The position numbers were made by a program, and so were the translations under genes. 25,662 nt of DNA from a virus. Position 1 is the stretch's first letter. The number at the start of each line of letters is the position of its first letter. The stretch lies in IMG/VR virus record IMGVR_UViG_3300017917_000228, positions 1-25,662 of that record; one strand, written 5' to 3'. Positions 14,607 to 25,662 of the stretch are shown here, in pieces. The notes beneath the pieces were generated by a model. The model had not been told where the DNA came from. It saw only the letters and a list, made by a program, of their open reading frames with translations, and made no database searches.

Positions 14607-15703
14607 TTTACTACATGTCCAGTGGTAATGATTACCTGTGCAGCTGACATTGTGGGCGGTACTGGGCGATAACCCGAGCCACCTGTAACTACAGAGATAC
14701 CGGAGATTTGTCCATTGGCCACCGTGGCCACTGCTGATGCTCCTGCACCTTCACCTACAATTTCAATCAATGGAGCGGCCTGATAACCTTGCCCTGCGTT
14801 GACAATGTTGATACTGGTAACTACACCATCTTCGACCACTGCTGTGGCCTGTCCAGCATAGCCCATGACCATGTTACCGTTTTCTCCAGTGGTATAGATT
14901 GAGTTGTTAAAACACAAACGAATTAGCGGATGCCAACCCACAATAGTCATGTAAACAGTACCAGTTTTGTTTAGATACTGTTTGCTGTCTGTGATGTTGT
15001 AAAATATACTTTGATAGTTTTCAGCTGCTTGGGCTTTGATTGTTCCTGTGTATCCCACCAAATCAAATTGAATAGTAGTAACTGCACTCTGCGGCTCAAT
15101 ATAACTGGAATAAAACTCAGTACTTTGATAAGGACTGTAGTTGTTGATTGGGGCTCCACCTTGCAACGCCCAGTCTGGGTAGTTACTGGAACTAGAACCA
15201 CCGTAGCTTACCTGAGCTGTTAGGTCGGTTGTGGGAATAGTAAGTTCTGCACTGGGCACAAATTCTGGGTAGATACTGTCTACAATATCCACAGGAGCTG
15301 CGGCGCCAGCTTGGGCATCTGTAAACACAGCTTCTACAAGATTTCCTGATGCACGACTGATACTGTAGTTTGCAGGTTGTGCTTGAATATAATTCAAATC
15401 CTCTGCAGATAGTGTGACCTTGGCACGCCCAGCTTGAGCATTGATAATGGTCATTTGAGTGGCATTCATTAGCTCTAGTCCGTCTTGACTGATCAGTCTA
15501 AAGATTAATGTGCTACCTGAGATGTTTACAGGCTTTTGATCTTGGTTGATAAACTCAAATAATATGACATTATCAACGCCTTTGTTTATGGTTAGTTTTT
15601 TTGCGTACACTGGGTCGTACCTCATAGTAAAGTAAGCACCACTGGTGTCAATCATTAATACTCTGGTCTTTTGTTGATATAAATACGCCGTGGTCGAATA
15701 CAT
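14591..15703 (-). CDS. baseplate/structural protein with BppU-like N-domain and C-terminal repeats
   Basis: A 370-aa virion-type protein. Residues ~28-140 (RYDPVYAKKLTINKGVDNVI, then FEFINQDQKPVNISGSTLIF) resemble the Ig-like N-terminal domain of phage baseplate upper (BppU-type) proteins and similar T4-like structural proteins. The middle (~150-270) is Ser/Tyr/Asn-rich with no recognised fold. The C-terminus holds two related beta units at about 284-317 and 320-352, aligned on VTSINIVNAGQGYQAAP and ISGISVVTGGSGYRPVP, a repeat common in phage appendage proteins. The ATG at 15703 has AGAGGA about five bases upstream, at the predicted 5' end of a transcript from the CATAAATA box at 15727-15720. 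Confidence 0.8.
   Translation of the reverse strand: MYSTTAYLYQQKTRVLMIDTSGAYFTMRYDPVYAKKLTINKGVDNVILFEFINQDQKPVNISGSTLIFRLISQDGLELMNATQMTIINAQAGRAKVTLSAEDLNYIQAQPANYSISRASGNLVEAVFTDAQAGAAAPVDIVDSIYPEFVPSAELTIPTTDLTAQVSYGGSSSSNYPDWALQGGAPINNYSPYQSTEFYSSYIEPQSAVTTIQFDLVGYTGTIKAQAAENYQSIFYNITDSKQYLNKTGTVYMTIVGWHPLIRLCFNNSIYTTGENGNMVMGYAGQATAVVEDGVVTSINIVNAGQGYQAAPLIEIVGEGAGASAVATVANGQISGISVVTGGSGYRPVPPTMSAAQVIITTGHVVNLKYR
15678..15685 (+). promoter_or_regulatory. T4-type late promoter on the plus strand (exact TATAAATA)
   Basis: Exact late box on the plus strand inside the first codons of the opposite-strand gene (Tyr-Leu-Tyr). Predicted +1 near 15691 leads to the plus-strand ATG at 15725 after a 34-base leader. 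The only plus-strand gene in the middle of the window lies directly downstream, which supports it. Confidence 0.68.
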
Positions 15704-15719
15704 AGGAATCCTCTAACAA

Positions 15720-15727
15720 TATTTATG
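15720..15727 (-). promoter_or_regulatory. late promoter box (CATAAATA) for the baseplate-type gene
   Basis: Seven of eight late-box bases on the minus strand. +1 is predicted at 15714; the 11-base leader begins AGAGGA and ends at the ATG at 15703. Its CAT is the complement of the plus-strand start codon at 15725-15727. Confidence 0.55.
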
Positions 15728-24047: not shown

Positions 24048-24890
24048 TTATTTCCAGTTTTTTACTATCACTGAATCCTGTGTTTGATCGGGTTTGGGCG
24101 TACCGTGAAAAACCAGTATTGCTGTGCCATCACTGATATCAGTCCCCGATCCCGGAGTTTGCCATGTCCTACGCTTAAAATCATAGCCCCCGTCCAAGCA
24201 TTGCCAGCGCCAGCTTTTGACCAGTTCTGGGTTAAAATATCTACGTTGTTGTTCTGTTATTACAGAATTAATATAATCCTGGTCTCCTCGGAATCTTTTC
24301 ATAGTTTGTGCTAGATCAAGATCTAAAAAATTACTCCATACCCAATCAAACTGTGTGGTATCCCACCACATTATACTGGAATTAATTGATTGGTGCATTG
24401 GCCTCCAAAGATGCTTGAAATCCTTAACTGCCCAAAAATGCCTGAGTTTTAATTGCCATATCCAATCTATATTTTTAGTAATAACAATGTCTAGGTCAAA
24501 GTACAACAACGGTCCACGATGATGCTCACTGTTAAACAATTGCACCTTGTACCACCAGGACTGTTTTGGTCCTCCAATTGCCCAATCCACTAATTCGTGC
24601 TTGATGTATGGCGCCGGTACTAGTCTGCTGGCTTCTGTGTAAACATGTAAACGTATTGGTCGTGTTAAATTTCTTGACAACATGTTGTACAGTTTATCAA
24701 CATAGCTCCAGCTATAACCATCGCCATGTATTACACAGGCGCAGTCCAACGGGCTGGTATAATCCAGTGTGCCGTCGTGCGGAATGGTCGATGCAGGTAG
24801 CAATGGGCTGTCTTTGCTGTGGCCTTTTAATCTGCGTTTTTCTTCTTTGCTTAATATCAAGATTCTATATTTACCGTTAACTACGTACAT
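24048..24890 (-). CDS. GT8-like glycosyltransferase
   Basis: A 280-aa probable GT-A fold, retaining glycosyltransferase that moves a sugar from a nucleotide-sugar donor. GT8-type marks are: LLYFDLDIVI with the metal-binding DLD (132-134), NSSIMWWD (170-177, like the NSGVMLxD region), RGDQDYIN (201-208) and FHGTPKP (261-267, like HFxGPKPW). The acceptor is unknown; phage or host surface glycans and glycosylated virion proteins are candidates. I chose ATG 24890; the frame runs on to 25118 but the extra 76 codons lie opposite the plus-strand gene. The start is 10 bases from the divergent plus-strand ATG and shows no ribosome site. Confidence 0.82.
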   Translation of the reverse strand: MYVVNGKYRILILSKEEKRRLKGHSKDSPLLPASTIPHDGTLDYTSPLDCACVIHGDGYSWSYVDKLYNMLSRNLTRPIRLHVYTEASRLVPAPYIKHELVDWAIGGPKQSWWYKVQLFNSEHHRGPLLYFDLDIVITKNIDWIWQLKLRHFWAVKDFKHLWRPMHQSINSSIMWWDTTQFDWVWSNFLDLDLAQTMKRFRGDQDYINSVITEQQRRYFNPELVKSWRWQCLDGGYDFKRRTWQTPGSGTDISDGTAILVFHGTPKPDQTQDSVIVKNWK

Positions 24891-24895
24891 AAATA
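24888..24895 (+). promoter_or_regulatory. late-type box (CATAAATA) for the plus-strand fusion gene
   Basis: Seven of eight late-box bases. If used at -13 to -6, +1 is exactly the A of the ATG at 24901, a leaderless message; no Shine-Dalgarno is present. The CAT of the box is the complement of the minus-strand start codon. Confidence 0.45.
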
Positions 24896-24903
24896 TCTTT
24901 ATG
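24896..24903 (-). promoter_or_regulatory. weak late-type box (CATAAAGA) for the glycosyltransferase gene
   Basis: Six of eight late-box bases on the minus strand. Spacing again puts +1 at the A of the ATG at 24890. It is the mirror image of the plus-strand box in a 16-bp near-palindrome; on sequence match alone it would not be called. Confidence 0.3.
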
Positions 24904-25662
24904 AAAAAGATTGTGTTAGTTACTGGTGGCTTTGATCCATTACACTCGGGCCACATTGAATATTTTAAAGAAGCAAAAAAATTAGGAGACCTCTTGATAG
25001 TTGGAGTCAACAGTGACTCGTGGCTAGAACGAAAAAAAGGGGCCCCGTTTATGCCCTTGTTAGAACGCACTAACATTGTGCGTAATTTAAAGATGGTAGA
25101 TTTTGTTATTGATTTCAATGATGACGATGGCAGTGCTCGTCATGCCATCACAATGGTTCGTCAAAGTTATCCTCGAGACCAAATTATTTTTGCCAATGGT
25201 GGAGATCGAACCAACGATAATATTCCAGAAATGGATGTTGCCGATGATAACACCAAGTTTGTGTTTGGCGTGGGCGGATTTAACAAAGCAAATTCTAGTA
25301 GTTGGATTCTACAAGAATGGAAAGCACCAAAAACAGAACGTCCATGGGGCTATTACCGTATTCTACACCAAGTGCCGGGTATAAAAGTCAAAGAACTCAC
25401 AGTTGATCCAGGCTGTAGTTTAAGTTTACAAAGACACTGGAAACGTGCTGAATACTGGATTGTATCAGAAGGCAAGTGTGTTGTTAAAATGCATTTAGAC
25501 GGTGGCTATCAACTTCCCCCGGTTACATTAGAAAAACATCAAGAACACAAAATACACATAGCTGAGTGGCATCAATTAACCAATCCATTTGATGTGCCTT
25601 GTAGAATTGTTGAGATACAATACGGCGAAGATTGTACCGAAGATGACATTGAAAGAAAAGAA
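24901..25662 (+). CDS. nucleotidyltransferase-phosphomannose isomerase (cupin) fusion, 3' end cut
   Basis: An open frame of 254 codons to the window edge with no stop. Residues 1-135 form a cytidylyltransferase-like domain: TGGFDPLHSGHIEYF with the H15-x-G-H18 nucleotide-binding motif, NGGDRTN (99-105) and a KANSSSWIL segment where RTEGIST-type motifs normally lie. Residues ~145-254 match the C-terminal cupin of type II mannose-6-phosphate isomerase/GDP-mannose pyrophosphorylase: RPWGYYRIL, LSLQRHWKRAEYWIV (candidate metal ligands Q177, H179, E184) and WHQLTNP (H224). It probably makes or interconverts an activated sugar or sugar phosphate for the divergent glycosyltransferase. The family normally ends soon after EDDIERKE, so only a few residues are likely missing. 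Exact substrates are unknown. Confidence 0.88.
   Translation, partial: MKKIVLVTGGFDPLHSGHIEYFKEAKKLGDLLIVGVNSDSWLERKKGAPFMPLLERTNIVRNLKMVDFVIDFNDDDGSARHAITMVRQSYPRDQIIFANGGDRTNDNIPEMDVADDNTKFVFGVGGFNKANSSSWILQEWKAPKTERPWGYYRILHQVPGIKVKELTVDPGCSLSLQRHWKRAEYWIVSEGKCVVKMHLDGGYQLPPVTLEKHQEHKIHIAEWHQLTNPFDVPCRIVEIQYGEDCTEDDIERKE

Follow-up and report, generated by a model that had tools for sequence, protein, structure and literature searches.

A T4-type late promoter box at the start codon in a jumbo phage fragment and a predicted class of leaderless late genes

Can a single 16-bp element serve as both promoter and start site for two divergent genes? The question is raised by CATAAATATCTTTATG, a 16-mer at the junction of two oppositely oriented genes in a 25,662-nt stretch of viral DNA (IMG/VR record IMGVR_UViG_3300017917_000228, positions 1 to 25,662; one strand), hereafter the window. 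An earlier note had read this near-palindrome as two overlapping T4-late-like boxes and two start codons, from which both genes would be expressed without leaders. Our analysis favors a different arrangement, to which we assign a probability of roughly 0.78: the plus half would be a T4-type late promoter fused to the start codon, giving a leaderless mRNA as one member of a genome-wide class, while the minus gene would be served by a separate box, GGTAAATA, and the palindrome would be incidental.

The junction and its plus-strand box

The window represents part of the genome of a large T4-like phage. Among isolates, the versions closest to its UvsW-type helicase are those of Sinorhizobium phage Phosso and Agrobacterium phage Atu_ph07, and a 317-kb IMG/VR record (G001) contains relatives of nearly all window genes, several core ones being ~80–87% identical; the close relatives compared here are metagenomic sequences. 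The window also carries an unusual phage cargo, a NifU/IscU-like scaffold gene (PF01592; 3203–4292, minus strand), adjoined by two small genes that by eye resemble iron-sulfur assembly proteins.

The sequence and position of the 16-mer are exactly as the earlier note gave them (24888–24903), with the plus ATG at 24901–24903 and a CAT at 24888–24890 that reads as ATG on the minus strand. Seven of its eight pairs match, leaving two mismatches against its own reverse complement. The geometry described for the two strands is also correct: the plus box occupies -13 to -6 from ATG 24901, CATAAAGA does likewise from ATG 24890, and no AGGAG-like word precedes either ATG, in agreement with the claim that neither start has a Shine-Dalgarno sequence.

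On the plus strand, the T4-late-type promoter box CATAAATA (24888–24895) ends 5 nt before the ATG and is followed by the spacer TCTTT (24896–24900), which places a pyrimidine at -1. The plus gene (24901–25662, plus strand) runs to the contig end and encodes a fusion of a cytidylyltransferase-like domain (PF01467) with a mannose-6-phosphate-isomerase C-terminal (cupin) domain (PF01050). We retrieved 80 relatives of this gene for junction comparison; loci selected by motif were left out of the unbiased junction counts (though they were included in the logo of the upstream block discussed below). An NTAAATA box followed by 5 nt and ATG was present in 48 of 58 distinct junctions, and ATAAATA stood at exactly this position in 44 distinct junction sequences. 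The box was kept under both divergent and co-directional upstream neighbors, and the start of the protein (MKKIVLVTGGFD) was conserved among relatives. Within this gene family, Shine-Dalgarno sequences were found in none of the 48 box-bearing junctions versus three of the ten without a box (Fisher p = 0.004). In T4, late boxes begin at -13, roughly a helical turn ahead of +1 (PMC2988020), and this geometry, applied to a 5-nt spacing, puts +1 on the A of the ATG. Transcription of the plus gene thus most probably yields a leaderless late mRNA, with its +1 taken from T4.

A class of boxes five nucleotides before ATG

Is this arrangement peculiar to one gene family? We surveyed distances (d) from ATAAATA to gene ATGs in six relatives' genomes and in Pelagibacter phage Mosig, using gene starts from a simple ORF caller that were checked against annotation in Mosig only (where the ATGs of the short-spacing class were annotated CDS starts in all five cases checked, of six). 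Distances peaked at exactly 5 nt, with 41 genes (35 in the six relatives and 6 in Mosig) falling into 32 protein families by BLAST clustering. A second peak at 14–28 nt comprised 75 genes across the same genomes, usually with a Shine-Dalgarno sequence, such that, of the ATAAATA boxes close to gene starts in this phage group, about a third sit at d = 5 and the rest at d = 14–28. Five control 7-mers of similar composition averaged 0–0.4 occurrences per genome at 5 nt, and the enrichment was strand-specific, the reverse complement TATTTAT being absent at d = 4–7. Shine-Dalgarno-like words preceded 5 of 46 genes in the d = 4–8 class versus 37 of 56 in the d = 14–28 class. The plus half of the earlier model is supported: the box stands at the T4 distance, with +1 predicted on the A of ATG 24901 and no Shine-Dalgarno sequence, and the combination of box, 5 nt and ATG exceeds chance, recurring in 48 of 58 junctions of its own family and in 32 protein families.

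The base before the ATG was T or C in 41 of 41 genes at d = 5 versus 48% over all genes (binomial p ~1e-13, or ~6e-11 when each family contributes a single gene). At the corresponding position of leadered genes, 5 nt after the box, there was no pyrimidine bias, which restricts the rule to the predicted leaderless class. A pyrimidine at -1 may prevent the polymerase from initiating at the preceding base, which would ruin a 5'-terminal AUG, and so fix the start on the A. Starts at d = 5 from any NTAAATA box comprised 65 ATG, no GTG and no TTG codons, in line with leaderless mRNA in E. coli, where AUG is strongly preferred and GUG and UUG are poorly used (PMC9031893). Among single-base variants of the box, enrichment at d = 5 was confined to NTAAATA (GTAAATA being a working variant) and ATAAGTA; ATAAACA, ATAATTA, ATAAAAA and other variants showed none or nearly none. 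Across G001–G005, ATAAATA was rarer than a third-order Markov expectation (31 observed versus 96 predicted in G002), as if it were avoided away from promoters.

Among the products of the d = 5 class are the tail tube, a head-tail adaptor and further virion proteins; one of the Mosig members encodes a DNA end protector. Homologues of gp55 were found in G001–G005, Mosig, PA5oct and S-SSM7, and none was found in the window, itself a genome fragment. Their open frames span ~280–320 aa versus 188 in T4; since +1 is taken from T4 and these homologues are longer, the true start could be displaced by one or two bases. The strand-specific, TATAAATA-like box upstream of late genes and the encoded gp55 sigma agree with T4-type late promoters, and the absence of Shine-Dalgarno sequences, together with AUG rather than GUG/UUG starts, agrees with leaderless mRNA genes.

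These phages share with T4 late transcription (gp55/gp33/gp45) the box NATAAATA, gp55 homologues and late virion genes, but differ in spacing: in T4, none of 65 ATAAATA boxes lay 4–8 nt from a gene ATG and 22 lay at 14–28 nt, whereas the phages surveyed have about a third of their near-start boxes at the leaderless spacing. In T4 gene e, too, late promoters are positioned at the translation start, which makes late transcripts distinct from read-through ones (PMC3014915); T4 retains both a leader and a ribosome binding site, whereas here +1 would be the start codon itself. Bacterial and phage leaderless mRNAs (e.g., lambda cI) lack a Shine-Dalgarno sequence and have the 5'-terminal AUG that is predicted here; unlike these, the present case is predicted to be an entire set of lytic late genes linked to a single phage sigma-type box. 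Pelagibacter phage Mosig EXVC030M, a cultured isolate, though distant, has its six genes in the same d = 5 class with T before the ATG in all, and these genes differ from those found here; its predicted leaderless ATGs include those at 92996, 94129, 60990, 60328 and 106670. We found no report of leaderless late mRNAs of T4-like phages in the open-access library searched.

The minus-strand gene and divergent pairs

The glycosyltransferase-like minus gene (PHROG 1962) spans 24048–24890 on the minus strand when its frame is taken from ATG 24890, and its first ten codons are probably promoter rather than coding sequence. Between ATG 24890 and TTG 24860, pairwise comparison of the window and four close relatives gave 0 synonymous versus 12 non-synonymous differences over ten codons, and 34 synonymous versus 22 non-synonymous over the next 16 (the pairs are not independent). 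This lack of synonymous change suggests that the gene probably begins after GGTAAATA and that ATG 24890 is probably not its start. Of the two start codons proposed by the earlier note, then, the plus ATG 24901 is conserved, while the minus ATG is probably not a start. The start may perhaps be a candidate TTG at 24858–24860 (minus strand), which lies 7 nt after GGTAAATA and is kept in four close relatives as well as the window, though TTG starts of this leaderless type are rare (none at d = 5–6 and two at d = 7). In relatives L085–L110, in which the glycosyltransferase lies in an operon, a Shine-Dalgarno start falls near window residues 40–48 (24747–24773, minus strand); the window's clade has lost that start and has a longer frame, served by a new promoter further upstream.

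The box that the earlier note assigned to this gene, CATAAAGA, contains the variant ATAAAGA, none of whose 384 occurrences lies at the leaderless spacing of d = 5, and it was ruled out as the minus box on this count. Together with the substitution pattern after ATG 24890, this speaks against the minus half of the earlier model. The more likely minus promoter is GGTAAATA (24868–24875, read on the minus strand), which falls inside the first codons of the frame from ATG 24890 and stands back-to-back with the plus box, 12 nt from it. A minus NTAAATA box 14–17 bp from the plus box recurred in 17 of 48 distinct junctions, with differing minus genes. Some of these genes have leaderless spacing (5 nt in L041, L045 and L077, 6 nt in L007 and 7 nt in L056) and others are leadered (18 nt in L010, L027, L044 and L058).

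Divergent pairs at leaderless spacing on both sides do occur: G002, G004 and G006 each contain a junction with boxes 7 bp apart and starts 4–7 nt from the box on either side. The idea of two leaderless genes firing from one small element is thus right in kind, except that the element consists of two adjacent boxes and not one palindrome. Across whole genomes, a search for a fixed back-to-back gap returned few cases, with a varying gap. At another divergent junction of the window, CATAAATA at 15720–15727 (minus strand) overlaps a plus ATG at 15725; the minus gene that it serves, at 15703, is leadered and has a Shine-Dalgarno sequence.

As we envisage the junction, a gp55-class sigma would recognize the box NATAAATA at -13 to -6 and transcription would begin on the A of ATG 24901; on the resulting leaderless mRNA, the ribosome would recognize the 5'-terminal AUG rather than a Shine-Dalgarno sequence. 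The minus gene would be fired from its own back-to-back box GGTAAATA (24875–24868), with +1 expected at about 24862, making the junction a compact bidirectional late promoter built of two boxes.

Palindromes, upstream block and alternative readings

The 16-mer palindrome is not unusual, as 15 16-bp windows are equally palindromic in 25.7 kb. The comparison with related phages went against its conservation: it is kept in only 3 of 44 distinct junction sequences (relatives and window), all from the window's own clade, and outside that clade the same register pairs only 3–5 of 8 positions. A conserved palindromic unit is ruled out on these counts, and the palindrome appears, from sequence comparison, to be incidental. 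The reading in which one palindrome supplies both boxes and both start codons, leaving both genes leaderless, accordingly seems very improbable to us. Its geometry is exact on both strands and an identical 16-mer is shared by the window, L001, L002, L003 and L014, but the palindrome is missing elsewhere, ATAAAGA never occurs at d = 5, the first ten minus codons change only non-synonymously, and a better minus box lies 12 nt from the plus box.

A different palindrome, GCAGATA-AA-TATCTGC, lies 3 bp further left and has 7-bp arms. Found in most relatives, it could act as an operator or RNA hairpin that controls the gene, with the box match secondary. It occurs in 21 of 44 distinct junctions and shows a compensatory change in L060, the upstream block TWATNTNNGCA is conserved as well, and T4 genes e and soc have RNA-structured start regions, within which the gene e late promoters begin (PMC3014915). 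Yet about half of the junctions, including the window, break this palindrome while keeping ATAAATA, 5 nt and ATG, and other leaderless genes lack it. It is broken so often that the box arrangement does not depend on it. It may have a role in the plus-gene family, but we regard such control as unlikely. A sigma70-like promoter with a ~12-nt leader, its TWATNT ~24 nt before the ATG and the late box providing a second start, appears slightly less probable still. A weak -10-like TWATNT is conserved at -24 to -19 in the plus-gene family, but no -35 is visible and the element is absent from most other d = 5 genes.

The block GTTAACTACGTA (24876–24887, plus strand), directly upstream of the plus box, is conserved among distinct junctions of the plus-gene family, with consensus [AG]TWATNTRCGCA at ~-25 to -14 from the ATG (the logo includes the motif-selected loci). 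In a scan with GATAAATATCTGCATG, at least 64 of 83 distinct matches sat before members of this family, and the others included some, with the same upstream block, before genes that by eye are methyltransferase-like or glycosyltransferase-like. At L390, L392, L432 and L430, ATATGCGCA or AACTACGTA followed by GATAAATATCTGC and ATG stands ahead of such unrelated genes (again by eye). Block and box look as if they formed a promoter cassette spread among unrelated genes.

Taken beyond this junction, the fused promoter and start codon point, with somewhat better than even odds, to a systematic second class of late genes in a large group of gp55-encoding jumbo phages: virion proteins would be among its products, its mRNAs would be leaderless, and some of its genes would form divergent pairs with ~30–40 bp between start codons. 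If true, T4-type late expression would include leaderless translation as an integral branch, one that might suit late-infection ribosomes. In the textbook system of T4 late transcription, translation starts from leaders that carry a ribosome binding site. With a leaderless class alongside, recognizable from sequence alone by its fixed 5-nt spacing and -1 pyrimidine, these phages would initiate translation of their late proteins by two routes. Such a class would also allow annotated start codons to be corrected, as for the minus gene here, and would offer a simple test of whether late-infection ribosomes favor 5'-terminal AUGs.
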